Shown here one piece after another: positions 27,703 through 48,009 of a stretch of 64,000 nucleotides of DNA (position 1 is the stretch's first letter; every line of letters begins with the position of its first letter). The notes beneath the pieces were generated by a model. That model worked only from the letters and a program-made list of their open reading frames with translations. It was not told where the DNA came from and did no database searches. The position numbers and the translations under genes are program-made. The stretch covers positions 1-64,000 of the forward strand of contig NZ_JACOIJ010000013.1 of the NCBI RefSeq assembly GCF_014692495.1, written 5' to 3'. This DNA comes from Sphingobacterium litopenaei (GTDB lineage Bacteria; Bacteroidota; Bacteroidia; Sphingobacteriales; Sphingobacteriaceae).

Positions 27703-29262
27703 ATGAATATTAAAAAAATTATACTTTCTGTTTTTGTGTCTAGCGCTTTTTGGGGATATGCTCAAGCGCAATCCGTAGACGATGCTGTTTCTTTTTCTAA
27801 AGATGATAATCCAGCTTCAGCCAGAATCAAAGGTATGGGAAATGTACAAACTTCTCTAGGAGGTGATATTACTGCGGTAAATGGTAATCCTGCAGGTCTT
27901 GGATTTTTCAGCCGCTCTGATATAAGCATTACTTTTGACTATTTACAGAACAGCAATAAGGCCGATTTCCTTGGCACTAATTCTAATAGTAATAAAGGAA
28001 ATTTTGGCGTTTCGCAAGCTGGTGTAGTTTTTAATTTTCCCAATAGAAATCAGATAGCGGGGTATGCAGGCTGGCAAAATTTTAATATGGGAATCAGCTA
28101 CAATAAAAAGCAGAATTTCAATAATTCAATTATTTACAATGGAATAAATAATGAAACATCCTATGTAAATAATCTTACAGACATCATGGCTGAAGATAAA
28201 GGCTTTGAAAATGATTTTTATAATAGTTATCTTGTTGAAAAATTTGCTAATCCAGCAGATGGATACTTCCCTTTAGCAGAAGAAGGCTATGATAAAGATC
28301 AAGTTAATGATTTATTAACAAAAGGTTACCATAGTAATACTGCTCTCGCTTTTGGTGCAAACTATAATAATAAATTCTATATCGGAGGTACTTTAGGTTT
28401 GTCATTCTTTAAATATGAAAAGAGTAAGATATTTGAAGAAAATGGTTTGACAAAACTTGCAGTAGATGTAGCAAAGGACAACCCAAATTCTGATTTCGCT
28501 GACCCGACCTCTGCTGATTATATAAAGTTTGGAGATAAAAGCTATCAACTAATAGATGATTATTCTCAAATTAGTGAAGGTTCAGGTGTTGACTTTAAAT
28601 TAGGTATGATCTACAAGCCTGCTACCGATTGGAATATTGGCTTAACAATCACCACTCCTACGTTGTTAAGCATCAGCGAAACTACTGACGCCTTTACTGA
28701 TGTTAGTTTTTTTCCTGATATGGGATCTAATAATTCATTTCACACTTATGAGTCAAAATTGTACTCAAGTGATCAAGATTATAACTTAACTACGCCTTGG
28801 AAATTCGCATTAGGCGCTACTAAATTCTTTAATCGAGGATTATTTAGTGCAGAAATGGAATATATAACCTACAATACTACACGATACAGTAATCCTTCAA
28901 GATTTAACTCATTCCAAAATATGAATGATATTATCAAGGATGAGCTGCAAGGTGCAGTGAATGTTCGTTTAGGAGGTGAATATTTGATTAATAATATTAT
29001 CAGTGGACGTGCAGGATTCAACTTTATAGGCAATCCTTACAAATATGCTGAAGAAACTAATGTTAGTGGTAGTGTTGGTCTAGGTTTCAAATTGACGAAC
29101 ACCTTATATGCTGATATAGCTATTGTACATCAAGTTAATTCTTACAGCGCTGCACCTTATGTGTTAAGTGATTTTTGGTACGATAGAGGAAGTTTTGAAC
29201 CAATCGCAGATTTAAAACTTCAACGCACAAATGCATTGTTTACTATTGGAGCTAAGTTTTAG
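27703..29262 (+). CDS. Outer-membrane beta-barrel protein, FadL/OmpP1 (PorV-like) type
   Basis: About 519 residues with a signal peptide (about 1-19, cleaved after AQA). The mature N terminus is VDDAVSFSKDDNPASARIKGMGN followed by SLGGDITAVNGNPAGLGFF, the NPAG hallmark of the FadL/OmpP1 superfamily in Bacteroidota. The rest is strand-rich barrel ending TIGAKF with a C-terminal Phe. FadL proteins move hydrophobic molecules; the substrate here is unknown. The open frame reaches back to 27649, but that extension is the terminator of the previous gene. Confidence 0.82.
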   Translation: MNIKKIILSVFVSSAFWGYAQAQSVDDAVSFSKDDNPASARIKGMGNVQTSLGGDITAVNGNPAGLGFFSRSDISITFDYLQNSNKADFLGTNSNSNKGNFGVSQAGVVFNFPNRNQIAGYAGWQNFNMGISYNKKQNFNNSIIYNGINNETSYVNNLTDIMAEDKGFENDFYNSYLVEKFANPADGYFPLAEEGYDKDQVNDLLTKGYHSNTALAFGANYNNKFYIGGTLGLSFFKYEKSKIFEENGLTKLAVDVAKDNPNSDFADPTSADYIKFGDKSYQLIDDYSQISEGSGVDFKLGMIYKPATDWNIGLTITTPTLLSISETTDAFTDVSFFPDMGSNNSFHTYESKLYSSDQDYNLTTPWKFALGATKFFNRGLFSAEMEYITYNTTRYSNPSRFNSFQNMNDIIKDELQGAVNVRLGGEYLINNIISGRAGFNFIGNPYKYAEETNVSGSVGLGFKLTNTLYADIAIVHQVNSYSAAPYVLSDFWYDRGSFEPIADLKLQRTNALFTIGAKF

Positions 29263-31169: not shown

Positions 31170-31931
31170 CTATTTACATACGATGGTTTGTATTCCCAGA
31201 GAATCAAATAATTCTTGGAAAGAAGAAGGTATTTCGTTGCTAATAATAACATCTATATTAGAGAAATCAGCAATTTTACCAAAACTCTTTCTGCTAAATT
31301 TACTTGAATCCGCTAGCACAATAACTTGTTGAGCGACTGAAATCATTTTTTGGTTTAACAAAGCTTCTTGCGCACTAGTAGTAGAAATGCCATATTCTAA
31401 ATCTATACCATCCACACCTAGAAAAAGTTTGGAGCAAAAAAATTGTTCCAGGGTATTAATAGCATATTGACCTGTCACGGAAGAAGAAGTATGTCGAACA
31501 GAACCTCCCAACTGAATAACCTCTACATTAGAATGCTTTAAAAGTTCCAAAGTGACATTTAATGCAGACGTAACCACGGTCAAATGACCTTGAGGTATTA
31601 TCTCGCGCGCAAAAAATTGTGTAGTCGTACCTGATCCAATGATAATGGAATCATTTGGCGTCACAAAATTAGCGGAAGCTTTTGCAATAGCACGTTTTTC
31701 TGCCTCATGCAATTTTTCTTTTTCAATAACTGAACGATCTGTCTGATAAGGGTTTTGTTTGGTTACGCCTCCATGTGTCCGATACACCAATCCAGAATCT
31801 TCTAAAAATTGTAAATCCTTTCGTATTGTTACGGATGAAACTCCTAAACTTTCACAAAGTTCTACTACCGATATATGTCCTTTAAGGTTTACTTCCCTGA
31901 TAATGTGTTGATGACGTTCGACGTTATTCAT
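31170..31931 (-). CDS. glpR: DeoR/GlpR family transcriptional repressor (probable glycerol regulon regulator)
   Basis: A 253-residue DeoR-family protein. The N-terminal helix-turn-helix is HISVVELCESLGVSSVTIRKDL (about 19-40), with the DeoR-typical RTHGGV following. The C-terminal sugar-phosphate-sensing domain (about 75-250) has the DeoRC pattern IIIGSGTTTQFFA, VVTSALNVTLEL and VDGIDLEYGISTTSAQEA. It is divergent from glpD, so it is probably the glycerol-3-phosphate-responsive repressor of glpDKF. Candidate operator boxes lie in the 127-bp intergenic gap. The effector is inferred from context. Confidence 0.85.
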   Translation of the reverse strand: MNNVERHQHIIREVNLKGHISVVELCESLGVSSVTIRKDLQFLEDSGLVYRTHGGVTKQNPYQTDRSVIEKEKLHEAEKRAIAKASANFVTPNDSIIIGSGTTTQFFAREIIPQGHLTVVTSALNVTLELLKHSNVEVIQLGGSVRHTSSSVTGQYAINTLEQFFCSKLFLGVDGIDLEYGISTTSAQEALLNQKMISVAQQVIVLADSSKFSRKSFGKIADFSNIDVIISNEIPSSFQELFDSLGIQTIVCK

Positions 31932-31958: not shown

Positions 31959-32024
31959 AAACGAAAGAAAAAGATAAAATATTTTTCATTTTGTTTCGTT
32001 TATTTACGTTTTTTATTAATTTTA
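31959..32024 (+). promoter_or_regulatory. glpR-glpD intergenic control region: inverted repeat and TTTCG/TTTACG boxes
   Basis: AAACGAAA (31959-31966) and TTTCGTTT (31994-32001) are exact inverted copies. A related TTTACG box occurs at 32003-32008 and another at 32021-32026. TAATTTTA (32017-32024) fits 7 of 8 positions of the -7 element, with TTTG at 31990-31993 upstream. The boxes overlap or flank the promoter, as expected for a DeoR-family repressor operator. Assignment to GlpR is inferred from position and from TTTCG-type sites known for other DeoR-family proteins. Confidence 0.5.
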
Positions 32025-35186: not shown

Positions 35187-35912
35187 ATGACACCTTTATT
35201 AGCTGAATTTATTGGAACAGCTGTATTAATCCTTCTGGGAGGTGGAGTTGTAGCCAATGTCCTTCTAAAAGGAACAAATGGCAACAATTCTGGCTGGATT
35301 GTGATTAGTACTGCTTGGGCTTTAGCTGTTTTCGTAGGCGTTACGATTGCAGGCCCCTATAGCGGAGCACATTTGAACTGCGCTGTTAGTTTATCGGTAT
35401 TAATCATGGGCGAAATGAGTTTGATGACAGCATTAGGCTATATGGCTGCGCAATTAGCAGGTGCTATGCTTGGTTCTTTTTGCGTTTGGGCATTCTACAA
35501 AGATCATTTTGACCAAACAGAAGATGCTGGCGCTAAACAAGCAGTATTCTGCACTTCTCCTGCAATCAAAAACTTACCTCGCAATTTGCTAAGTGAGACA
35601 CTAGCGACTTTTGTTCTAATTTTCACTATTCTGCATTTTAAGGATGCCACTTTGAATTCCACCACACCTATTGGCTTAGGCTCTATTGGTGCACTACCAG
35701 TGGCTTTTCTTGTTTGGGCAATAGGACTTTCATTAGGAGGAACAACGGGATATGCGATCAATCCAGCGAGAGATTTGGGACCGCGCATTGTTCATGCATT
35801 AGTACCCATTAAAAACAAAGCGTCATTTAATGCGGAATATGCATGGGTTCCAGTATTGGGGCCAATGATAGGCGCAGCATTAGCAGCATTACTATATCTT
35901 GTCATACATTAA
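35187..35912 (+). CDS. glpF: MIP-family glycerol facilitator (aquaglyceroporin)
   Basis: A 241-residue, six-helix channel for glycerol entry. The second half-helix motif is canonical: NPARDLGPR (Asn192-Pro-Ala, with Asp196 typical of glycerol channels and Arg195 of the filter). The first half-helix motif reads GAHLNCAVS, so the usual NPA is Asn64-Cys65-Ala66. The Asn that orients substrate is kept, while Pro is lost. This could be a lineage variant or affect selectivity. Starts 26 bp after glpK and is the last gene of glpDKF; no strong terminator is visible before the susC leader. Confidence 0.9.
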   Translation: MTPLLAEFIGTAVLILLGGGVVANVLLKGTNGNNSGWIVISTAWALAVFVGVTIAGPYSGAHLNCAVSLSVLIMGEMSLMTALGYMAAQLAGAMLGSFCVWAFYKDHFDQTEDAGAKQAVFCTSPAIKNLPRNLLSETLATFVLIFTILHFKDATLNSTTPIGLGSIGALPVAFLVWAIGLSLGGTTGYAINPARDLGPRIVHALVPIKNKASFNAEYAWVPVLGPMIGAALAALLYLVIH

Positions 35913-35962
35913 TGATAAACATATATAGATAAATTAAGAAAAGAAACATAACCAACAATTAG

Positions 35963-36000
35963 CTTAATATAAGTTTAACATCGACTTAATTTAAGCTTTG
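35963..36000 (+). promoter_or_regulatory. Candidate PhoB-type box and promoter of the susC operon
   Basis: Three TTAA-centred repeats start at 35964, 35975 and 35986, exactly 11 bp apart. As 11-mers from 35963 they read CTTAATATAAG, TTTAACATCGA and CTTAATTTAAG; the first and third agree at 10 of 11 positions. Direct repeats with an 11-bp period are the defining geometry of PhoB sites. TA-AGC-TTTG (35992-36000) follows at once as a near-consensus -7 element (one base too long), consistent with an activator-dependent promoter. It lies 30 bp before the susC ATG. The PhoB assignment is inference. Confidence 0.45.
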
Positions 36001-36029
36001 CAAATTAGCAACGAATTAATCATACTCCT

Positions 36030-39000
36030 ATGTTAAATAAAATAAAATGGGGAAATGGAGATAGACCATTTCAGACCAAACTTGTTTGGCTTGCACTTAT
36101 TTCTAGCCCATTTGTGGGAAATGCATTTGCCTATGAAAAGACACCTACAGATGCATGGGTATTACAGCAGACCATAAAAATAGGTGGTAAAGTTTTAGAT
36201 TCTAAAACCAATCAGCCCCTATCTAATGTTTCTATTCAGGTGAACGGAAAAGCCGTGACATCATCTAAAGTAGATGGTACATTCACTTTAGATGTTCCTA
36301 CAGGAGCAGAGGTAAGATTTAATCTTATTGGATATGAATCTTATACTCAAAAGTATAGTACAGCGAACAGTAACATTACTATCCGATTAACCGAATCTTC
36401 TCAAGATATCGACGAGGTTGTTGTTACGGCGTTAGGAATCAAAAGAGAACAAAAGGCTCTTGGTTATTCCGTTAGTACGGTTTCAGGAGAACAATTAACT
36501 GATGCGATATCTAACAACTGGTCAGATGCCTTAGTCGGAAAAGTAGCAGGTTTGAATGTTACGAAATCCAATGGAGGTCCTTTAGGATCAAATGAAATCG
36601 TATTGCGAGGCGAAACTTCGTTTTCAGGTGACAACAGTGCACTTATCGTGATTGATGGTGTTGTCATGGAAGCTGGTAAAAGAATGACTACTACTGGTCA
36701 ATCCAATTATTTAGCAGACGATTCTCCTGTTGACTTTGGTTCGTCATTAGCAGACATCAATCCAGATGATATAGAATCCATAACAGTATTAAAAGGTCCT
36801 GCGGCATCCGCATTATATGGTTATCGTGGTGCAAATGGAGCTTTGATTATTACGACAAAACAAGGCAAAAAAGGTGGTGGATTTGGTGTTTCTGTAAACT
36901 CCAATACTACTTTTGGAACTATTAACCGTTGGCCAGATTATCAATATGAATACGGACAAGGTGATATTGGTCAAGACCTCTACTACTCGTATGGACAAAC
37001 AGATGATGGATCATCTACATTTAGTACTTCTTCGGCATGGGGTCCGAAATTTGATGGACAAATGTTCTACCAATATGATCCAGAATATTATAGAATAGCT
37101 CCACCAAATCGTACATTGTGGCAAGCTTATCCAAACAATAGAAAAGATTTATTTACGACAGATGTTACTGCGACAAATAGTATCAGCATCTCGGGTTCGA
37201 CAGATAAAACATCTGCTCGTTTCGCTTATACTAACGTTTATAATTCTTGGATTATTCCAAACATGGGATATAACCGGAACTCCATAGCGGGTAACTTAAC
37301 AAACCAACTTACAGAGAAGTTATCATTCTCTACCAAAATTAATTACAACCACCGTGGATCTGACAACTTACCTAACTCGGGTTATAACAACCAAAGTTAT
37401 ATGTATTTTGTTCGTGGTATTACTCCAAACATGGATTCCAAATGGTTTGAAGATAACTGGAGACCAAATAGATATGGTATTGAACAAACAACGCCATTCT
37501 CTAACTTATTGGATAATCCAAAAACCATGTCTTATGACATGATTAACTCCCAAAACAAACATCAAGTTATTGGTAATATTCAAGCGGACTACAAATTCAC
37601 TTCCGAACTGAGTTTGATGCTTCGTGGTGGTCTAGACTTTTCTTACGATCAACGTACGCAGTCAAGACCTTTTGACACGTACAAATATGCTTTTGGTTAC
37701 TACCGTGAACAAGGTGTCTACAACCAAGAAGTGAATGCGGATTTCCTTTTCACTTACAACAATCAGAGAAATGAGGATTTCAAATTTGGCGGAAACTTCG
37801 GTGGAGCGATGTTAGTAAACGTGTATGATAGAGAAGATGGCTGGACAAGATCATTAAGTGTTCCTAACGAATATAATTTCTCTAATTCCGCTACAACGGT
37901 TACATACTCTCCATATTTGTCTAAATATGCTGTTAACAGTTTGTACGGAATGGGTAATGCCAGTTATAAAGATGTAGTCTTCTTAGATGCTACATTACGT
38001 ACGGACTGGGCTAGTACTTTAGCTTCTCCTAAAAAAGGAAATGTTAAGCCTTTCTTCTACCCTTCAGTAAATGCCAGTGTGGTATTGTCGGATGTATTTG
38101 AACTTCCTCAAAATATCAGTTTCTGGAAATTTAGAGCGAGTGCAGCCGCAGTCGGAGGTGGTGGTAAACGCCCATACTTAAATAGTTACACCTACCCTCG
38201 CGAAACCAACTTCCCAGGTGGTGCATCCAACCCTACATCTATTCCAGATGAAGAATTAACATTCGAAAATAAAATTTCGTACGAATTAGGGACTGAATTT
38301 AGAATGTTTAAAAACCGTGCTAAAATAGATGTAACATTTTATAAAGGATTCAATGTAAATCAAATCATCGAAACGCCTATCGATCCATCATCGGGCTATA
38401 GAAACCAAATCATCAATGGTGGTAAGGTAAGTAATAAAGGTCTTGAAATTGAATTGAACGGCGATATCATTAAAAATTCTCAAGGATTTGGTTGGTCATT
38501 ATTCGGTAATTACACAGCTTTTGATACTAAAATCGAAGAATTGCCAGTGATGGACGAAGATAAACCATTAGTATTATCTACTATTTACGGAAGCCGTGGT
38601 ACTGTAGAAGCAAGACTAGGCGGACGTTTTGGTGATATGTACGGATTGGGTTACTTACGTAGTCCTGAGGGTCAAATAGTATACAGTTCAGGATTGCCTG
38701 TGTATACTGACGATGTTATTTACATCGGAAATCCGAATGCAAGACAAAAATTTGGTATCGGTACTACATTAAGCTACAAAAACCTAAGATTCAACGTTTT
38801 ATTTGATGGTCAGTTCGGTGGTGTTGGTTACTCTTTGACACATGCGGTACTGATGGAAGAAGGTAAATTAAGAAAAACTATTCCAGGAAGATATAACGGA
38901 ATTATTGGTAATGGTGTAATCGAAAATGCTGACGGTACGTATTCTCCAAATAATGTTGTGGTTGCTGCAGGAGATTATTACCGTACCCATTTCAACAGAG

Positions 39001-39272
39001 ATAACATTGAATCAAATACATTTTCTACCGACTTCGTTAAGTTAAGAGAAGCACGTTTGGATTATTCTTTACCAAAAGACGTATTGAGCAAGTTAAAAGC
39101 TAGCAAAGTGACTGTAGGTATTTATGGACGTGATCTTCTTGTATTTAGTAACTGGCCTGCGTTTGATCCTGAATTTGGATCATTAAATGCAAGTGGTGTG
39201 GAAAAAGGTGGTGAGATAGCTCAATTCCCTTCAACACGCAATTTTGGTATTAACTTATCCGTGTCTTTCTAA
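36030..39272 (+). CDS. SusC/RagA family TonB-dependent outer-membrane transporter
   Basis: A 1080-residue transporter. An N-terminal signal region (about 1-35) is followed by a carboxypeptidase-regulatory-like domain (about 50-130: GGKVLDSKTNQPLSNVSIQV, then DGTFTLDVP). The SusC signature DEVVVTALGIKREQKALGYS comes next (about 131-150), then the plug (about 150-300: LVGKVAGLNV, LIVIDGVV, DIESITVLKGPAASALYG) and a 22-strand-type barrel ending FGINLSVSF. With SusD it forms a lidded importer powered by TonB. Gene context points to phosphodiester or glycerol-phosphate ligands rather than a glycan. Confidence 0.94.
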   Translation: MLNKIKWGNGDRPFQTKLVWLALISSPFVGNAFAYEKTPTDAWVLQQTIKIGGKVLDSKTNQPLSNVSIQVNGKAVTSSKVDGTFTLDVPTGAEVRFNLIGYESYTQKYSTANSNITIRLTESSQDIDEVVVTALGIKREQKALGYSVSTVSGEQLTDAISNNWSDALVGKVAGLNVTKSNGGPLGSNEIVLRGETSFSGDNSALIVIDGVVMEAGKRMTTTGQSNYLADDSPVDFGSSLADINPDDIESITVLKGPAASALYGYRGANGALIITTKQGKKGGGFGVSVNSNTTFGTINRWPDYQYEYGQGDIGQDLYYSYGQTDDGSSTFSTSSAWGPKFDGQMFYQYDPEYYRIAPPNRTLWQAYPNNRKDLFTTDVTATNSISISGSTDKTSARFAYTNVYNSWIIPNMGYNRNSIAGNLTNQLTEKLSFSTKINYNHRGSDNLPNSGYNNQSYMYFVRGITPNMDSKWFEDNWRPNRYGIEQTTPFSNLLDNPKTMSYDMINSQNKHQVIGNIQADYKFTSELSLMLRGGLDFSYDQRTQSRPFDTYKYAFGYYREQGVYNQEVNADFLFTYNNQRNEDFKFGGNFGGAMLVNVYDREDGWTRSLSVPNEYNFSNSATTVTYSPYLSKYAVNSLYGMGNASYKDVVFLDATLRTDWASTLASPKKGNVKPFFYPSVNASVVLSDVFELPQNISFWKFRASAAAVGGGGKRPYLNSYTYPRETNFPGGASNPTSIPDEELTFENKISYELGTEFRMFKNRAKIDVTFYKGFNVNQIIETPIDPSSGYRNQIINGGKVSNKGLEIELNGDIIKNSQGFGWSLFGNYTAFDTKIEELPVMDEDKPLVLSTIYGSRGTVEARLGGRFGDMYGLGYLRSPEGQIVYSSGLPVYTDDVIYIGNPNARQKFGIGTTLSYKNLRFNVLFDGQFGGVGYSLTHAVLMEEGKLRKTIPGRYNGIIGNGVIENADGTYSPNNVVVAAGDYYRTHFNRDNIESNTFSTDFVKLREARLDYSLPKDVLSKLKASKVTVGIYGRDLLVFSNWPAFDPEFGSLNASGVEKGGEIAQFPSTRNFGINLSVSF

Positions 39273-39282
39273 TCGAATTGTT

Positions 39283-40743
39283 ATGAAATTTAAATTTAAC
39301 TTAATTATAGCCGCTGCAACTTTATGCATTACCTCATTGAGTTGTACAAAAGATTTTGTGGATGTGAATACCAACCCAAATGAAGCGGCGAAAGTATCGC
39401 CTCAAGCTTTATTGGGTCCCACAATATATAAAACCATATTAGCTAATATTGACCGTAATATGCGTATTAATAACGAGCTAATGCAGGTTACAGTTACAAC
39501 TAACAACAATCTAGAGTTTCACCGTTATGAGGTTCGTGCAACAGAAACTGAGGCGATGTGGAGAAACTGGTATGTAGAACTTACTAACATTCGTGATATT
39601 TACCATAGTGCGGGAATAGCTCAACAAGCAGGTTTCCAAGCTTACCAAGGTATCTCTAGAATCTTAGATGTATGGGTTAGTTCATTACTTACGGATATGT
39701 ATGGTGACATTCCTTATTTCCAAAGTAATCTAGGATACAAGGAATTAAATACGACACCCGTATATGATAAGCAAATAGATATTTATCGTGATCTATTCTT
39801 AAAATTAGAACAAGCCAATCAATTGTTGACGGATAATACGATTCCTGATGCACAAAAAAACATGGATCCTCTATTTGCTGGAAATACAGAAAAATGGCGC
39901 AAGTTTGGTAATTCACTTTACCTAAGATTATTGCTACGTGTTTCTCATAAACCAGAATTGGATGCTGCGGTGAAAATTCGTGAAATTGTAGAAACTAAAT
40001 CATCACAATATCCTATTATGGCTAGTCATGATGATTCAGCTATTCTTTATTTCTCTTCGCAAGAGCCATATATCAATCCTTACTTGAATGCCCGCGACAT
40101 TGATTTCAATGGTAATAAAGGCTATTCACATTTCTTTATTGAAAATTTAATTGCGCTTGGTGACCCTCGTCTTGCTTTGTGGGCTACTCAACCAACATTA
40201 GGTACTTATTTAGGTATGCAATCTGGTTATCCACGCGGATTAGTACCTGAGCGTCAGTCTACATTTCACCTGTCTTTAAAGACAAGTCCTAAATTAGGTA
40301 ATATCCTAAATTATGCGGAATTGCAATTTATATTAGCAGAATGTGCACTTAGAGGATTTACGTTTGGAGATTCGTGGCAACATTATCAAGATGGTGTAAA
40401 CTCGGCTATGCAAATATGGGATGCAAATGTACCTGTAAATTACTTTAGCAATGAACGTGTAGGCTTCTTCCCTACCGACACAGACGAAACCAAATTGAAG
40501 AAAATCCATTTACAAAAGTATTTTGCTTTATTCTTTACAGACTTCCAACAGTGGTATGAATACCGCAGAACTAAAGCTTTGGATTTAATTCCAGGACCAG
40601 GTTTAGAAGGACGCAAAATGCCAGTAAGAATGACTTATCCGTTAATCACTCAGGCATTAAATAAAGTTAATTATGATGAAGCATCTGCTCGTATGGGAGG
40701 AAATACTCCAAACGGATTAATGTGGTGGCAACCTGCTAATTAA
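39283..40743 (+). CDS. SusD/RagB family nutrient-binding outer-membrane lipoprotein
   Basis: About 486 residues from the ATG at 39283 (the frame is open from 39244, but MKFKFNLIIAAATLCITSLSC is a clear lipoprotein signal). The mature start CTKDFVDVNTNPNEA is characteristic of the SusD-like 2 subgroup. Helical TPR-like segments follow (GISRILDVWVSSLLTDMYGDIPYF, then KWRKFGNSLYLRLLLRVSH), with AELQFILAECALRG near residue 350. It is the surface lid of the adjacent SusC, 10 bp downstream. The SusD-like 2 subgroup is often linked with non-glycan substrates, which fits the context. Confidence 0.92.
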   Translation: MKFKFNLIIAAATLCITSLSCTKDFVDVNTNPNEAAKVSPQALLGPTIYKTILANIDRNMRINNELMQVTVTTNNNLEFHRYEVRATETEAMWRNWYVELTNIRDIYHSAGIAQQAGFQAYQGISRILDVWVSSLLTDMYGDIPYFQSNLGYKELNTTPVYDKQIDIYRDLFLKLEQANQLLTDNTIPDAQKNMDPLFAGNTEKWRKFGNSLYLRLLLRVSHKPELDAAVKIREIVETKSSQYPIMASHDDSAILYFSSQEPYINPYLNARDIDFNGNKGYSHFFIENLIALGDPRLALWATQPTLGTYLGMQSGYPRGLVPERQSTFHLSLKTSPKLGNILNYAELQFILAECALRGFTFGDSWQHYQDGVNSAMQIWDANVPVNYFSNERVGFFPTDTDETKLKKIHLQKYFALFFTDFQQWYEYRRTKALDLIPGPGLEGRKMPVRMTYPLITQALNKVNYDEASARMGGNTPNGLMWWQPAN

Positions 40744-40745
40744 AT

Positions 40746-41996
40746 ATGAAGACTATGAAAACGAGAGGAATAAAACAATTAATATATATTGGGATTACAG
40801 CAACTTTGCTTTCAAGTTGTTTCAAGGAAGATATAAATGAAGCTATCGGTACGAATAATCCGGAGATTTCTATTTATGCTTTACGCAATCTTCACAAACA
40901 AGACGATGTTAAACTTACCGATACTGAACTAACAAGTGCTAATCATATCAAAGCATTAGTAGTATCCACTCATGAAGGCAATAATTTCCCTAAGAATTAC
41001 ATTGCTGTACAGAATGAATGGAGAGGACAGCTTCGTGGTATATTGTTAGAAGTAGCTGATCCGCAACGCTATAAGCTGGGCGATTCAGTAGACATCTGGG
41101 TAGATGGTCTTACATTAGGACGTCGTGAAGGCGTACTAGCTTTATTAGGCGCTGATCACAACAATACGTATATCATCAACAGAAATAACCCTGTTGTTGC
41201 AAAAGCAGTAGCTATTTCTTCGCTTAACAAACAATATGACAATTATGAATCTACATACGTAGAAATTACGTCGGATTTAGAAGTTGAACCTAACCCAGGA
41301 GAAAAAATTAAAGGTTCACGACCTTTAGCAGATGGAAGTGGCAATAAAGTGTATGTAACTGTTAGCAATGAAGCAAATTTCGCTGAGGAAGTGGTCGCTC
41401 CTAGTGCAACGTTTAGAGGAATAGTGTCGAAACAGCAAGAGGAAGTTCATTTACGTTTGTTAACGTATGCGGACATGGCTTATCCAAGTGGTAAAATATA
41501 TGCAGGATGGCCTGAGACATTTGAGAATCCTGATTCACCAAAAGATGGATACGCCAATAGAACTGTCGTCCTTTCCACAGGACCTTGGTGGTTCCAACAA
41601 ACATTATTAGGTGTGACACAAGGAAGAGATCGTATTGTTTCGGGTGCGAATGCTGTTCGTTTCCAACAAAACCATGCTTCTTTAGATGCGTTATTGCAAA
41701 TGGATTTTGATGTGCCAAATGGTGCTTCCAAAGTAACTTTCTTCTACGGATCGTATTGGAATGACCCTACTAGCTGGTTCAAATTAGAATACTCTACAGA
41801 CAAAGGTGCTACATGGCAGCAAGCTGGTGAACCAATTAGAGATGCGCATACAACAACGGAAAGTATGGACAGCAAGCAAGCCATATTCTTAATGAATATT
41901 CAAGGCCCTGTTCGCTTCAGAATAAATCGTCCTCAAGCAAACAACGTTGGTGGAAGATTAGGTGTGGATGATTTTGCTATTTTCAGAAGTTACTAA
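40746..41996 (+). CDS. DUF5689-domain surface lipoprotein
   Basis: A 416-residue protein with a lipoprotein signal (LLSSCFKED). The N-terminal part has the DUF5689 pattern: IKALVVSTHEGNNFPKNYIA (about 67-86), then GILLEVADP, LGDSVDIWVDGLTLG and TYVEITSDLEV, an OB-like beta fold. The C-terminal part (about 265-416) looks like a choice-of-anchor or carbohydrate-binding-like jelly roll (KVTFFYGSYWNDPTSWFKLEYS, then VRFRINRP ... LGVDDFAIF). It probably binds substrate at the cell surface for the SusCD importer. It begins 2 bp after susD; a second in-frame ATG 3 codons in is possible. Confidence 0.82.
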   Translation: MKTMKTRGIKQLIYIGITATLLSSCFKEDINEAIGTNNPEISIYALRNLHKQDDVKLTDTELTSANHIKALVVSTHEGNNFPKNYIAVQNEWRGQLRGILLEVADPQRYKLGDSVDIWVDGLTLGRREGVLALLGADHNNTYIINRNNPVVAKAVAISSLNKQYDNYESTYVEITSDLEVEPNPGEKIKGSRPLADGSGNKVYVTVSNEANFAEEVVAPSATFRGIVSKQQEEVHLRLLTYADMAYPSGKIYAGWPETFENPDSPKDGYANRTVVLSTGPWWFQQTLLGVTQGRDRIVSGANAVRFQQNHASLDALLQMDFDVPNGASKVTFFYGSYWNDPTSWFKLEYSTDKGATWQQAGEPIRDAHTTTESMDSKQAIFLMNIQGPVRFRINRPQANNVGGRLGVDDFAIFRSY

Positions 41997-42015: not shown

Positions 42016-43980
42016 ATGAAAAAATTTAATATATTTTTAATGTTAATTTTCATCTTTACTACTGTATTTACAGCCTGTGAAGATAAGATTATCGATACCA
42101 CGGAGGATAAAATTCAAACCTCCATTAAAGTCACACATATCAATATTCCATATGTGTATAATGTAACCAATGAATCTGATATCACTATCGAAGGAAAAGG
42201 TTTTGAACAAACAGATAGTATCACATTTATTCCACGTGGAGGCCAAGGTGGTGGAACTATTAAATTGGGGATTAAAACAATAGAAGACGAGAAAGTGGCT
42301 CTAGAAAATAGCCCTTATTTTAGAGACGGAGAATATGAAATCCGCATACAACGAGGAATATTAGATCAACTTTTAGGTAGAACATTTGTAAACCGCATCT
42401 TCAATGCTAGTATTCCGGATCGTGAAGGAATGACAGTAAAAGGAACGGTACATTCCAATGGCCAAGGTGTGGCAAACGTCATCGTTTCAGATGGTATCGA
42501 ATTTGCTGTCACCGATCAGAATGGTGTGTATTACTTACCTTCTGCTAAGAAACATGGTTTTGTGTTCATTACGGTACCTGCTAACTATGAAGTATCGGTA
42601 ATCAATACTATTCCTCAGTTTTTCAAGAGACTTGCGGGGTTAGCTTCTGCTACTGAAATCAAAGATTTTGAATTATTTCCAGTAAATAATGAAAACCATG
42701 TGGTGGCTTTTATGACTGATATGCACCTTGCAAACAGAAATAATGATTTGACACAATTTCAAAGTTTCATTGAAGATGTAAAGAATGTCTATGAGGAATA
42801 CAAAGGTCAAAATAAAAAATTCTATGGTATTACTTTAGGTGATCAGACATGGGATCAATACTGGTATTCAAATAACTTTAAATTAGAAAACTATGTCGAT
42901 CAAATCAAGAGCTTAGAATTCCCAATTTATAATGTTATTGGTAATCATGACTACAACCCTTATGTAAGTGCGAATGACTGGTTAGGTGCGGCTGAATACA
43001 GAAAAGTATTAGGACCTACTTATTATTCTATCAATATTGGCCGTGTTCACTACATTATTTTGGATAACATGCAGTGGTTGAATGATGGCGGAAGTCAAGG
43101 CGTTGTTGGTGAAAGAAACTACAGAGACTTTTTAGACCAAGAACAATTGACGTGGTTGGCTAAAGACTTATCTTATATTACGGACAAGAGCACACCGATT
43201 GTGATCGCTACTCACGTTCCATTATTTACAAATCCCGATCAAAACGGAAATTTCAACAATGCAATGGAAAATACTTCAGAGCTTTTAGCTGCGGTATCGG
43301 AGTTCACAAACGTAAAAGTAGCTACAGGTCACACCCATATTAATTACCGCAACTCTCCTGCAGGTTCTAACGTATATGAACAAAATATTGCTGCAGTAAG
43401 TGCAACTTGGTGGTGGACTGGTGCTACATCAGCAGCAAACCATATCTCTAGAGATGGTAGTCCAGGTGGTTATGCGATTTGGGAGATGACAGGAAGAAAC
43501 CAACAATGGTATTATAAGAGTATAGGATTTGATAAAGACTATCAATTCAGATCATACGATTTGAATAATATACACATTACTTCAGCTACTTATACACCAA
43601 GTGCTACGGATGAGTTTAAAGGAAAAGTTGCAGGCTATGCTGGTGAATTTGCTACAGCAAATAAAAATAACCAAGTGCTTATTAATGTATGGGGATACCA
43701 AGATAATTGGAAAGTTACGGTGAAGGAAAATGGTAACACTTTACCTGTAACTCGTGTACGTAAAAAAGACCCTTTACATATTATATCCTATGAGATGCAG
43801 CGCTTGAATGCCAATGCAGAACCGACCTCGTCATTTGTGACGGTAAATTCTGCTCACTTATTCTTAGCTACTGCATCTAATGCCACTTCGACATTAGAAA
43901 TAACCGTAGAAGATGAGTTTGGAAATAAATATACAGAAACAATGGTAAGGCCTAAAGCTTTCACTTACTCTATGCGCTAA
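42016..43980 (+). CDS. Secreted calcineurin-like metallophosphoesterase (three-domain)
   Basis: About 654 residues from the ATG at 42016, which opens a lipoprotein signal ending VFTACEDK; the open frame reaches back to 41962 within the previous gene. The N-terminal domain is Ig- or carboxypeptidase-regulatory-like (about 35-215: VKGTVHSNGQGVANVIVSDG). The catalytic domain (about 225-490) has all metal-binding blocks: TDMHLANR, LGDQTWDQYW, VIGNHDYN, IATHVPLF and GHTHINYR. A beta-rich C-terminal domain follows. It probably cleaves phosphomonoesters or phosphodiesters outside the cell; the substrate is inferred from flanking glpQ/glpT. Confidence 0.88.
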   Translation: MKKFNIFLMLIFIFTTVFTACEDKIIDTTEDKIQTSIKVTHINIPYVYNVTNESDITIEGKGFEQTDSITFIPRGGQGGGTIKLGIKTIEDEKVALENSPYFRDGEYEIRIQRGILDQLLGRTFVNRIFNASIPDREGMTVKGTVHSNGQGVANVIVSDGIEFAVTDQNGVYYLPSAKKHGFVFITVPANYEVSVINTIPQFFKRLAGLASATEIKDFELFPVNNENHVVAFMTDMHLANRNNDLTQFQSFIEDVKNVYEEYKGQNKKFYGITLGDQTWDQYWYSNNFKLENYVDQIKSLEFPIYNVIGNHDYNPYVSANDWLGAAEYRKVLGPTYYSINIGRVHYIILDNMQWLNDGGSQGVVGERNYRDFLDQEQLTWLAKDLSYITDKSTPIVIATHVPLFTNPDQNGNFNNAMENTSELLAAVSEFTNVKVATGHTHINYRNSPAGSNVYEQNIAAVSATWWWTGATSAANHISRDGSPGGYAIWEMTGRNQQWYYKSIGFDKDYQFRSYDLNNIHITSATYTPSATDEFKGKVAGYAGEFATANKNNQVLINVWGYQDNWKVTVKENGNTLPVTRVRKKDPLHIISYEMQRLNANAEPTSSFVTVNSAHLFLATASNATSTLEITVEDEFGNKYTETMVRPKAFTYSMR

Positions 43981-44038: not shown

Positions 44039-45595
44039 ATGAAAAAAGAAGGAATTAAAAGTTACGTTTTGTTATTAGCTTTATTCTTCGGCCTTTTTAC
44101 TTCATGTAGCAAAGACGAGGTTATAGGTTTCTTTTTGGACAAAACGACGAGTGAACTCGCATTCCCTTGGGAAGGTGGCGAAAAAGGATTTGCCTTTACG
44201 ACGAACGGAGAATCTTGGACTGTTTCTGCTCCAGATGCGGATTGGATAAGTTTTGATGTAACCTCAGGAACTGGTACAGGAAAAAGACAACCTGTCTTAG
44301 TAACTGTAACGCCAAATAAAGGAGAACAACGAACTGCTAACATCCAGATTAAAGTCGGCGAAGAGATAAGTGAGATAGCTGTTGCTCAAGAAGACGGAAG
44401 ATTGACTTTGGGAGAAGCTTCTCTTAATGCAGAATTATTCAATATCGGTGAAACTCTTGAAGATGTTTACATCACTATTCCTTACCAAAAAGGAATAGTA
44501 GGTGATGAGATTCATTTTTCAGTGAATGTAACTGGTGCTGGTGCTGCTGGAATAGACAAAGTAGAAAATCTTCTCGTAAAATTAGAAGCTACAGCAGGTG
44601 AAATTCGTATTCCTTTGAATGGTAATCCTACAGCAAAAGGAGATGTAACATTCACTGTAAGCATTACTGAAACAGATCGCGGACTTGTGATGCCAGCTCC
44701 TATTTCTAGAGAAGTATTTGATCCAAATGAACCACATCCAGATTCTTTACCATTTGTGATTTCGGGTTTCATGCCAGATCCTAATGGAGCAGATGGTAAC
44801 TATGAATACATCCAATTCCTAGCCTTACGTGATATTACATTTGATAATAATGCGAATGCGTATTCTGTTATTATATGTAACAATGCGGGAACTACTGCAG
44901 CGCCATCTGCTGGTCAACTTGACCGTAGACAGGATTATCCACCACAAGGATGGGCTTCAGGAACTTACACATTGAATAATGCATCGGTCGCACGTACATA
45001 CAAAATAAATATTACTTCTGGATCTGTTCAAAAAGGGCAATATTTCTATGTAGGAGGAACTGGAGCAAAAATCAATGGTCCTAATTCTACTAGCATGGAT
45101 AATGCAAAATGGATCACACAATATGATTATGTTAATAATCCTGGCGCTGATGGAATCGGAGATAAAAGCTCAGGTTTATTCGCTAACTCTGGTCTCACCT
45201 CAGGTTTAGCTGTATTCAAGGGCACAGCTGTAGATCATGAAACAGAACCAATAGATGTTATCTTTATTGGTCCGGGCACTGGAGCATTATATGGTCTTCG
45301 TAGCTATGCACCTTCTACAGGTCAAGAAAGAGGTTATCGAGTGACGAATACAGATCATTATACTGTAACCGGAACAAGTGATCGCTTCTATCGCCAAGGC
45401 AACAATACATTTGCTGTACCTTACCCTACGGGAGCTCCAGTTCAACAACAATTCTACGAATTGCGCGGAACTTATAATGTAACATCTGCAACTTGGACCA
45501 CAGCTAGATCATTCAATTTGATATCTTTAACGGATAATTCAACATTGAATCAAATTGAAACCAACAATTCAACAAAAATGATTCCTGCTCCATAA
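44039..45595 (+). CDS. BACON-domain surface lipoprotein of unknown function
   Basis: A 518-residue protein with a lipoprotein signal (LFTSCSKDE). A BACON-type Ig fold spans about 30-117 (FPWEGGEKGFAFTTNGESWTV, ADWISFDVTSGTG, RTANIQIKVG), a domain that usually acts as a binding or spacer module. A second beta domain follows (about 118-225). The C-terminal half (about 238-518) begins FVISGFMPDPNGADGNYEYIQFLALRD, which recalls lamin-tail domains. No catalytic residues are recognised. It is the last gene of the susC operon, followed by a very stable hairpin. Confidence 0.78.
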   Translation: MKKEGIKSYVLLLALFFGLFTSCSKDEVIGFFLDKTTSELAFPWEGGEKGFAFTTNGESWTVSAPDADWISFDVTSGTGTGKRQPVLVTVTPNKGEQRTANIQIKVGEEISEIAVAQEDGRLTLGEASLNAELFNIGETLEDVYITIPYQKGIVGDEIHFSVNVTGAGAAGIDKVENLLVKLEATAGEIRIPLNGNPTAKGDVTFTVSITETDRGLVMPAPISREVFDPNEPHPDSLPFVISGFMPDPNGADGNYEYIQFLALRDITFDNNANAYSVIICNNAGTTAAPSAGQLDRRQDYPPQGWASGTYTLNNASVARTYKINITSGSVQKGQYFYVGGTGAKINGPNSTSMDNAKWITQYDYVNNPGADGIGDKSSGLFANSGLTSGLAVFKGTAVDHETEPIDVIFIGPGTGALYGLRSYAPSTGQERGYRVTNTDHYTVTGTSDRFYRQGNNTFAVPYPTGAPVQQQFYELRGTYNVTSATWTTARSFNLISLTDNSTLNQIETNNSTKMIPAP

Positions 45596-45617
45596 GAGCA
45601 ATAACTTTATAGTATTC

Positions 45618-45664
45618 AACTTCGGTAGGACATTTTCTATTCATAGAAATGTCCTATCGAAGTT
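45618..45664 (+). terminator. Long hairpin closing the susC operon
   Basis: The arms at 45618-45639 and 45644-45664 pair over about 21 bp with one bulge and one G-T pair (core CTTCGGTAGGACATTT with AAATGTCCTATCGAAG). There is no strong T tail, so it may also act as an mRNA 3'-end stabiliser. It separates the susC operon from glpQ-glpT. Confidence 0.75.
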
Positions 45665-45687
45665 ACATTGTTTAATACAATATCATT

Positions 45688-45717
45688 TTTGTGAACTGTG
45701 TTTATTAGTTATTTTTA
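45688..45717 (+). promoter_or_regulatory. Candidate promoter of glpQ-glpT
   Basis: TTTG (45688-45691), 18 bp, TATTTTTA (45710-45717; 7 of 8 to TAnnTTTG), followed by CG as in the glpD promoter region. The ATG of glpQ is 22 bp further on. No copy of the TTTCGTTT box was seen here. Confidence 0.4.
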
Positions 45718-45739
45718 CGACCACATACTACTATAAACC

Positions 45740-46651
45740 ATGTTTATTAAGAAAAACATAATTTTATCTATTCTTATTTCAAGTACCGCATTCATATCTT
45801 GTAAGCAAATGCACTTGTCAAAAAACGTAGAACCCAACTTCCCTACTTTCGCTTACGAAGGTCATAGAGGTGCGCGTGGATTGTATCCTGAAAATTCTAT
45901 TGGCGCTATGAAAGTAGCAATGGATTTGCCAACAGTCACTACATTGGAAATGGACTGTCATATCACCAAAGACAAGAAAGTAGTTGTTTATCACGATGAT
46001 TTTCTAAATCCAAAATTCGTTACTTATAACAGCGGTAAAGAATTAGAAGGAAAGGACAACAAAGGTTTAATCTACGATTATACTTATGACCAGTTGCAAC
46101 AGTTTGATTTGGGATTAAAAGGAAATGTTGATTTCCCACAGCAAAAAAAGGTGTCAACAAAAATTTCACTTCTAGAGGATTTGGTCGAAGAATCTGAAAA
46201 ATATGCTGCAGCTAAAGGCAAAAAGATGTTTTATAATATCGAAACCAAAAGCAGTGACAAAAAAGACAACGTAGCACATCCTGAGCCAAAGGAATTTTCA
46301 GATTTATTATTGAAAGTTGTTTTCAACAAAGGCATTGACAAAAGAACGGTAATCCAATCTTTTGACAAACGCACGATCCAATACATCAACAAAAAATACC
46401 CTACAATTCGTACATCTTATTTAATCGATGCAAAAAACACAAAAACTCCAGTGCAATTGATAGAAGATTTGGGTTTTAAACCTTTTATCATTAGTCCTAA
46501 TTATAAAATTGTAACCAAAGATTTCGTGGAGCAGGCACATCAATTAGGCATCAAAATTATTCCTTGGACAGTTAACACCAAAGAAGAAATTGAAGCGTTG
46601 AAAGCGTTGAACGTGGATGGTATTATTAGTGACTATCCTAACCTATTTTAA
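45740..46651 (+). CDS. glpQ: Glycerophosphodiester phosphodiesterase, lipoprotein form
   Basis: Hydrolyses glycerophosphodiesters (deacylated phospholipids such as glycerophosphocholine or -ethanolamine) to glycerol-3-phosphate and the alcohol. 303 residues. The N-terminal signal ends FISCKQ (lipid-anchored Cys). The GDPD catalytic blocks are GHRGARGLYPENS (about 36-48, His/Arg/Glu), EMDCHITKDKKVVVYHDD (metal Glu/Asp and second His) and the C-terminal IIPWTVNTKEEIEALKALNVDGIISDYPNLF. It is a periplasmic-facing enzyme, 20 bp before glpT, so product release and uptake are coupled. Confidence 0.92.
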   Translation: MFIKKNIILSILISSTAFISCKQMHLSKNVEPNFPTFAYEGHRGARGLYPENSIGAMKVAMDLPTVTTLEMDCHITKDKKVVVYHDDFLNPKFVTYNSGKELEGKDNKGLIYDYTYDQLQQFDLGLKGNVDFPQQKKVSTKISLLEDLVEESEKYAAAKGKKMFYNIETKSSDKKDNVAHPEPKEFSDLLLKVVFNKGIDKRTVIQSFDKRTIQYINKKYPTIRTSYLIDAKNTKTPVQLIEDLGFKPFIISPNYKIVTKDFVEQAHQLGIKIIPWTVNTKEEIEALKALNVDGIISDYPNLF

Positions 46652-46671: not shown

Positions 46672-48009
46672 ATGCTGAATTTTTTAAAACCACCAAAACA
46701 CAAGGAACTATTACCAGCAGATAGAATAGATCCAGAATACAAAAAATTACGTATACAAGTCTTTATCGGGATATTCCTTGGATATGCCGCTTACTACTTT
46801 GTACGTAAGAATTTCTCGTTCGCTGTTAAAGATTTACAAGATACATTAGGCTATAGTAAAGCAGAATTAGGTTTTGCGATGTCCGCAATTTCTATTGCCT
46901 ACGGTTTAAGTAAATTCGTAATGGGGAATGTTTCAGACCGTAGTAATGCCAGATATTTCTTAGCGATTGGTTTAGTATTATCGTCGTTGACGATGATTTT
47001 TATGGGCTTTTCCCCTTTTGCTACTTCTTCCGTTGCCATCATGTTTATCTTGCTTTTTATAAACGGTTGGGTACAAGGAATGGGATGGCCTCCATGTGGT
47101 CGTGTGGTCGTACACTGGTTCTCCATCAAAGAACGCGGTACTACGATGTCTATTTGGAACTTAGCACACAATGTAGGTGGATTTTTAGTAGGTCCATTAG
47201 CCATTTTGGGTGTGGAATTATTTGTAGACTGGCAAGCTAGATTGTATTTTCCAGGTTTAGTGGCTATGCTATTTGCCCTTATTGTGATTCTTTTTGTGCG
47301 TGATACACCTCAATCTTGTGGTTTACCTCCTATCGAAAAATACAAAAACGATTACCCAAAAACTTATGAGGAATCGCAAGAGCAAGAATTCACAGCAAAA
47401 GAAATCTTCTTCAAATATGTATTCAACAATAGGCTGTTGTGGTTTATTGCTATCGCGAATGCTTTTGTGTATTTAGTCCGAAATGGTATTATCAACTGGG
47501 CACCCACATTCCTGCAAGAAGCCAAAGGATTCTCTTCTGCTGAAGCAGCTTGGTCTGCATCAGTTTATGAATTAGCAGCTATCCCTGGTACTATCCTTTG
47601 TGGGATTATGAGTGATAAACTATTCAAAGGAAGACGCGCACCCGTGACCATTATATTTATGGCAGTTACTTTCTTAGCGGTATTGTTGTACTGGTTGACA
47701 CCGGGTGATAATCCTTGGGTAATTAACATTGCATTATGGACAATCGGCTTTTTAATCTATGGACCAGTAATGTTGATTGGCGTACAAGCATTGGATTTAG
47801 TTCCGAAGAAAGCAGCGGGTACCGCAGCAGGTCTAACAGGTTTATTTGGCTATTTCATCGGTGATATGTTGGCGAATGCGGCATTAGGCGGATTGGTGGA
47901 TAAAAGCGGTTGGGATGCTTCATTCGAAATGATTCTAGCCTCATCGGTATTGGCAATTATCTTTACTGCTTTCACATGGAACAGAGAAAAAGAAATTCTT
48001 AACAGATAA
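46672..48009 (+). CDS. glpT: Glycerol-3-phosphate:phosphate antiporter (MFS, OPA family)
   Basis: A 445-residue 12-TM transporter of the organophosphate:phosphate antiporter family. LGYAAYYFVRKNFSFAV (about 35-51, TM1 with the substrate-binding Arg), YGLSKFVMGNVSDRSNARYFLAIGL (TM2-3 loop) and WVQGMGWPPCGRVVVHWFS are classic GlpT blocks, with LVRNGIINWAPTFLQE (second substrate Arg) in the second half. It brings G3P released by GlpQ into the cytoplasm for GlpD. UhpT-like hexose phosphate transport cannot be excluded, but glpQ and glpDKF favour G3P. Confidence 0.9.
   Translation: MLNFLKPPKHKELLPADRIDPEYKKLRIQVFIGIFLGYAAYYFVRKNFSFAVKDLQDTLGYSKAELGFAMSAISIAYGLSKFVMGNVSDRSNARYFLAIGLVLSSLTMIFMGFSPFATSSVAIMFILLFINGWVQGMGWPPCGRVVVHWFSIKERGTTMSIWNLAHNVGGFLVGPLAILGVELFVDWQARLYFPGLVAMLFALIVILFVRDTPQSCGLPPIEKYKNDYPKTYEESQEQEFTAKEIFFKYVFNNRLLWFIAIANAFVYLVRNGIINWAPTFLQEAKGFSSAEAAWSASVYELAAIPGTILCGIMSDKLFKGRRAPVTIIFMAVTFLAVLLYWLTPGDNPWVINIALWTIGFLIYGPVMLIGVQALDLVPKKAAGTAAGLTGLFGYFIGDMLANAALGGLVDKSGWDASFEMILASSVLAIIFTAFTWNREKEILNR

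Follow-up and report, generated by a model that had tools for sequence, protein, structure and literature searches.

The 64,000-nucleotide stretch of DNA analysed here (the window) carries three TTAA(C/T)A units, arranged as direct repeats in steps of 11 bp, upstream of a susC gene. The array is conserved in relatives, recurs at phosphate genes and at the promoter of a PhoB-like regulator gene, and lies at a preferred distance from a −7-like promoter element. Judged from these sequences, it is very likely to be a Pho-type box for a PhoB-like regulator, which would switch on an importer operon at low phosphate. The original prediction had proposed a PhoB box at this one promoter, and the comparison widens that idea to a regulon in which the position of the box follows a rule.

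The array between glpF and susC

The 117-bp gap between glpF (which ends at 35912) and susC (which starts at 36030) contains TTAATATAAGT-TTAACATCGAC-TTAATTTAAGC at 35964-35996. It can be seen that TTAA cores lie at 35964, 35975 and 35986, in steps of exactly 11 bp, just as had been predicted, and the two paired 11-mers singled out at the same time were located at 35963-35973 (CTTAATATAAG) and 35985-35995 (CTTAATTTAAG). Because the unit of the array is a direct repeat of TTAA(C/T)A, the near-palindromic appearance of CTTAATNTAAG is incidental. When the gap (35913-36029) was shuffled with dinucleotide composition retained, the pattern TTAAYN6TTAAYN6TTAAY was found at 15 of 15 positions, on either strand, in one of 5000 shuffles, and an equally good array was found in two of 2000 when all periods from 9 to 12 were permitted. 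The single 11-mer CTTAANNTAAG, allowed at most one mismatch, was not enriched in the window (16 occurrences against 31 expected).

Among named susC loci the closest are from Sphingobacterium, which places the genome in that genus. Twelve susC promoters from the genus were compared, each in the register that the matrix scored best. All twelve have TTAAC as the middle unit (in the window it is TTAACATCGAC, 35975-35985, forward strand, with the consensus TTAACA), and the distal unit (TTAATATAAGT, 35964-35974, forward strand) is TTAAY in five of them (the window, G009, G001, G015 and G048), ATAAC in one (G010) and not kept in the other six. The promoter-proximal unit (TTAATTTAAGC, 35986-35996, forward strand) is followed by a −7-like element at 15 bp in seven of the twelve, window included, and at 16 bp in one; two have none, and of the remaining two one has a −7 that is out of pattern by 1 bp or absent and the other fits another register better.

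A weight matrix was trained on pstS and PiT promoter sites only; the PiT set used in the training had starts placed too far upstream, and the register may be wrong for a few of the training rows. With this matrix the top score of the window, both strands considered, was 19.3 at 35961-35997, and the second best was 18.0 at 28296-28332, within an ORF. As 19.3 was reached somewhere in six of 200 random Markov sequences of 64 kb, the matrix score alone is no proof of a site, and it is modest beside the values of up to 29.4 seen in relatives. Scores of at least 12 were nevertheless found for 12 of the 14 glpF-linked susC promoters and for 12 among the 16 remaining susC orthologues, as against none of 51 controls, and the PhoB-like promoters, which lay outside the training, scored from 13.5 to 25.2.

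The weak −7 element originally said to abut the last unit (TAAGCTTTG) is probably the wrong one, since relatives and pst promoters favour CAAATTAG at 36001-36008 (forward strand), which on the basis of spacing is the likely −7 element. With CAAATTAG in this role the middle unit of the array occupies the expected −33 position, and no TTG-type −33 was seen at the expected place before susC. The −7 and −33 promoter elements of Bacteroidota are unlike those of E. coli, and E. coli PhoB is the model for an activator that takes the place of an upstream promoter element; the layout before susC suggests an activator substituting in this way. The array differs from the PHO box of E. coli in that its units are TTAA(C/T)A and not CTGTCAT, that three units are common, that the distance to −7 is in most cases 15 bp or 15 bp increased by a multiple of 11, and that no −35/−33 element is seen. 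Its unit resembles the B. subtilis PhoP box, which is TTAACA.

Spacing was analysed for 75 promoters with a box score of at least 13 (susC 9, pstS 22, PiT 14, phoB-like 30), using a −7-like pattern, [TC]AnnTT[TA]G, that had been selected after some of the same promoters had been seen. Of 61 offsets between the last unit and a −7-like element, 59 were 15, 26 or 37 bp; the two exceptions, 13 and 27 bp, are both in pstS promoters, and in 14 of the 75 promoters no such element was present within range. Among the class-wide phoB-like rows an offset of 26 occurs four times and one of 27 twice. Within the window's own genome the offset is 15 for the window susC and a PiT gene and 26 for the sites on C14, C77 and C66 described below, and the porin and ppx sites have no −7 at the usual distance.

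Recurrence of the box at phosphate genes

There are five perfect places for TTAAYN6TTAAYN6TTAAY in the window's own genome, against about 0.3 expected (an order-3 Markov model of the window gave one match in 12 runs of 0.96 Mb). These are the window susC, a PiT gene (PF01384; C25), a Porin_O_P gene (PF07396; C20) for an OprP-type, phosphate-selective porin, a MetallophosN/C phosphoesterase gene (C14), and a site on C77 where a TonB-dependent receptor gene ends and after which comes a lipoprotein gene with no Pfam match. At the porin the perfect register is on the strand pointing away from the gene and a one-mismatch register points toward it. The places with one mismatch, of which 34 were listed and a part inspected, include the promoters of a PhoB-like regulator gene (C66) and a Ppx/GppA gene (C11). 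The array is therefore shared with known phosphate genes, both in the own genome (PiT, porin and, with one mismatch, ppx) and in the genus (pstS and PiT). Two PF12849 matches are present in the own genome, both different from the pstS type that bears the box; the box is instead on PiT and the OprP-type porin.

An own-genome operon resembling PstSCAB (G000:C9, L335) was considered as a counterexample. Its promoter scored 10 of 15, with a matrix score of 2.1, and has no box, and its ATPase comes close to the PstB cut-off (335.6 against 343.2 bits). However, the divergent neighbour encodes a protein of the nitrite/sulfite reductase family (Pfam), and further neighbours, together with those of the G014 copy, resemble sulfur-assimilation genes when judged from sequence; the operon is therefore probably a sulfate transporter, and the counterexample was set aside. 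This operon and its G014:C6 counterpart (L334), both divergent from a sulfite-reductase-type gene, have a conserved TATATAATCTACCAAATTAGTATATATTTG-type promoter, probably for a regulator of their own.

We scanned about 200 bp upstream of sets of genes for the best three-unit score (maximum 15) at periods from 8 to 14, with start codons set by rule and not by annotation. The pstS set comprised 29 of 33 loci chosen by frame length and score (those of G024, G052, G074 and G018 were omitted, the last appearing as L133 elsewhere in the survey), and the PiT set 23 of 25, two partial genes being excluded. The glpF-linked susC set was 14 of 15 glpF loci, L031 with its longer gap being placed among the other susC orthologues. 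As controls we took the best 30 of 57 own-genome susC matches and 21 sulfate-type ABC operons, whose sulfate identity was inferred from the neighbours of the G000:C9 and G014 copies. The sequences are related, and hence the box counts are not independent.

At period 11 a score of at least 14 was found in 21 of 29 pstS, 11 of 23 PiT and 7 of 14 glpF-linked susC promoters, and in 0/16 other susC orthologues, 0/30 own-genome susC controls and 0/21 sulfate-type operons. A score of at least 13 was found for 22/29 pstS, 9/14 glpF-linked susC and 1/16 other susC promoters, and among the controls for 2/30 own-genome susC and 0/21 sulfate-type promoters; 7/29 pstS and 9/23 PiT promoters scored below 13. 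No score of at least 14 was seen at periods 8-10 or 12-14 in the pstS, PiT, susC or sulfate-type sets, so that in the phosphate sets the enrichment is at 11 bp. The control promoters are similarly AT-rich, yet they do not have the array, and a general susC-promoter motif was rejected, none of the 30 own-genome susC controls reaching 14.

A stricter pattern, TTAAYATN4TTAACAN5TTAAY, was searched for in 93 Sphingobacterium genomes, own included, and gave 36 matches in 30 genomes, compared with two for the reversed pattern. Fifteen of the 36 precede phosphate-linked genes (pstS 6, window-type susC 4, ppx 2, PiT 1, porin 1, ppk1 1), and the other 21 precede genes with no known phosphate link. Eleven of the latter belong to a ROK-regulator group, namely ten loci (one member assigned by Pfam and the others by similarity) plus an eleventh, identical site whose gene was assigned by the identity of the site; the remaining ten are before genes with no clear phosphate link or none identified. 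The ten ROK-group loci (L126, L137, L139-L143, L146, L151 and L152) are orthologous and divergent from another gene, and only some members of the genus have a perfect strict match at these ROK-regulator genes, with no apparent phosphate link.

The genome search that had been proposed for the 11-bp-period motif was thus positive: in Sphingobacterium it precedes pstS, PiT, OprP-type porin, ppx, ppk1 and PhoB-like regulator genes, and it is absent at 14 of 15 from all 51 controls.

Eighty named susC relatives were also compared, again with start codons set by rule. Five scored at least 14, all from Sphingobacterium, and none outside the genus reached 13, so that the link between this importer and the box looks like a trait of the genus; the box itself appears to be older. 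Pontibacter locus L288, one of the 80, had a matrix score of 13.1. At L011 and L035 the susC promoter and signal peptide are near-identical, with SusC proteins 88% and 53% identical to that of the window; it seems that the body of the importer was swapped behind a retained promoter.

A candidate regulator and its putative operon

Seven full-length OmpR-family regulators in the own genome match the PhoB model, the best of them being G000:C66:114749-115420, which has Response_reg and Trans_reg_C domains. Its best NCBIfam models are TIGR02154 (219 bits, cut-off 296) and the Bacteroides PhoB model NF053854 (211 bits, cut-off 270); as both scores fall below the cut-offs, we regard it as PhoB-like, though not certified as PhoB. 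Among its genus orthologues (30 loci listed, of 58 genomes with a match) the promoter array scored at least 13 in 30/30 and at least 14 in 29/30; at other periods a score of 14 was reached in 6/30 (period 13) and 1/30 (period 8). The promoters of the six other own-genome OmpR-family regulators scored 10-11. A class-wide set consisted of 28 of 30 listed loci, from 75 matching genomes among 149, with the own genome and a contig-edge locus excluded and one locus from the same genus. In this set 22/28 promoters (21/27 outside the genus) scored at least 13 and 10/28 at least 14, and at any other period at most 2/28 reached 13. PhoB/PhoP-type regulator genes are commonly autoregulated, and a box at the regulator's own gene is the pattern expected of an autoregulated PhoB. 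Together with the five perfect own-genome places and the pstS and PiT counts, the 29 of 30 regulator promoters support the PhoB-box reading, with corrections.

Under phosphate scarcity, a phosphorylated PhoB-like response regulator, most likely G000:C66:114749-115420, would bind the box at 35964-35996 head-to-tail, one monomer to each TTAA(C/T)A unit and all on a single helix face. The bound regulator would then recruit RNA polymerase to a promoter with a −7-like element (36001-36008) and no clear −33, and susC, susD and the genes for the DUF5689 protein, phosphoesterase and lipoprotein would be switched on, providing an outer-membrane importer and a phosphoesterase for phosphodiesters, for example glycerophospho-compounds.

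The locus runs in the order DeoR-family regulator (reverse strand), glpD, glpK, glpF, susC, SusD-like_2, DUF5689, phosphoesterase, lipoprotein, GlpQ, GlpT. The first gene after the box is susC (36030-39272, forward, as are those that follow; TIGR04056, 523.9 bits, above cut-off). Probably co-transcribed with it are genes for a SusD-like lipoprotein (SusD-like_2, Pfam; 39283-40743), a DUF5689 protein (Pfam; 40746-41996), a calcineurin-like phosphoesterase (MetallophosN/C, Pfam; 42019-43980) and a putative lipoprotein (44039-45595), the last known from ORF position and sequence only. Beyond these are a gene for a GlpQ-like glycerophosphodiesterase (45740-46651; Pfam GDPD), perhaps with its own promoter, and the glycerol-3-phosphate transporter gene glpT (46672-48009; TIGR00712, above cut-off). 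The 144-bp gap before glpQ (45596-45739) has no box, and it contains a CATTTTTG element as well as a long inverted repeat, which suggests a terminator or attenuator plus a separate promoter. GlpQ-GlpT may accordingly be a transcription unit apart from the susC operon. GlpQ had been counted in favour of Pho control, and while it is indeed present downstream, it may belong to a separate unit without a box. With GlpQ, GlpT and glpDKF nearby, glycerophosphodiesters are a natural guess for the imported substrate.

Alternative readings and known systems

A potential explanation that would not need to invoke phosphate is that the array is the operator of the neighbouring DeoR/GlpR-like repressor, in which case susC would be regulated along with the glycerol genes; susC lies 117 bp behind glpF. 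A DeoR-family regulator is encoded nearby (31170-31931, reverse strand; Pfam, GlpR-like by neighbourhood, with AgaR as its best NCBIfam model at 239 of 260 bits), and at L032 and L034 a half-site, AAAACGAAAG, stands directly before the susC box and resembles the glpD element. That element, a candidate operator of the DeoR-family regulator, is TTTCGTTTATTTACG at 31994-32008 (forward strand) with a similar one in Sphingobacterium relatives; there it is of the TTTCGTTTRTTTACG type, unlike the TTAAC repeats, and is likely to be the operator of the adjacent regulator. It has no match in the susC promoter (35913-36029) at up to three mismatches, so that no motif common to glpD and the window susC was found, and PiT, pstS and phoB-like promoters also carry the TTAAC array; we therefore regard a DeoR/GlpR operator at susC as very improbable. 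Even less credit is due to a dimeric repressor bound at a pair of palindromic CTTAANNTAAG operators with a spacing of 22 bp. Both 11-mers of this type are near-palindromic, but relatives retain the direct-repeat cores and not the palindrome (for example TTAATATTGAG-TTAACATTGAC-TTAATATTAGC), and the own genome has no further such pair at fewer than three mismatches; this reading was rejected.

The idea that the array is a box for an OmpR-family regulator with another signal, such as envelope or general nutrient stress, the phosphate genes being covered as well, is unlikely, though it has more to recommend it. Direct repeats of 11 bp are general for OmpR-family regulators, the C66 regulator falls under the PhoB cut-offs, and strict matches occur before the ROK regulator (11) and before genes of unclear link (10). 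Against this, those targets that can be recognised are genes for phosphate transport, polyphosphate and phosphoesterases, and the regulator promoter that bears the box belongs to the genome's best PhoB match, the other six being without one. Chance, finally, was originally raised as a real alternative in AT-rich intergenic DNA, and the matrix score recurs in random 64-kb sequences as noted above; the rarity of the array among gap shuffles, its retention in orthologous promoters and its absence from similarly AT-rich controls leave this explanation scarcely credible.

The reading of the array as a Pho-type box can be set beside systems already described. In the available text of PMC4415409 the PHO box of PhoB/PhoP consists of 11-nt direct repeats of species-specific sequence, which the regulator binds head-to-tail. 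The susC array is like it in having 11-nt direct repeats, three where at least two make a PHO box, and in lying upstream of phosphate genes. Bacteroidota PhoB is known by genetics from B. fragilis, and low-phosphate SusCD importers by omics from Flavobacterium. According to the available part of PMC3547664, B. fragilis PhoB was shown by EMSA to bind the pst promoter, and pstC expression at low phosphate requires it; this PhoRB regulon likewise has a Bacteroidota PhoB, and no box sequence is given there, the words 'consensus' and 'motif' being absent from the main text. Pho boxes have been predicted in plcP clusters of marine bacteria, with no sequence given in the available text (PMC4796936), and we recognised no published Bacteroidota Pho-box sequence in the accessible portions of the open-licence literature searched.

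With the balance only just in its favour, we put forward a single Bacteroidia-wide Pho box, made up of three TTAA(C/T)A units with an 11-bp period and placed 15, 26 or 37 bp before −7, which would serve autoregulation of the PhoB-like gene and lineage-specific phosphate genes including SusCD. In Sphingobacterium it would tie the glycerol-catabolism cluster to phosphate regulation, with a DeoR-type half-site next to it in some relatives, and the importer would serve both phosphorus and carbon need. A defined box would let Pho regulons be read from genomes and could tell SusCD systems serving phosphorus from those for sugar, and it would provide a simple rule, based on position, for how Bacteroidota promoters are activated.

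The window operon, known here from its genes, resembles in gene content the Pus clusters of Flavobacterium, having a SusCD pair and a phosphoesterase. As described in the available text of PMC8115612, Pus of F. johnsoniae are SusCD-like pairs that are induced at low phosphate and whose genes stand together with those for phosphomono- and phosphodiesterases; the word 'motif' does not occur in its main text. Unlike those clusters, the window locus adjoins glpDKF and glpQ-glpT, and its SusD-like protein is of family PF12771, whereas F. johnsoniae PusD1 and PusD2 are pf07980/pf14322 proteins (PMC8115612, available text).
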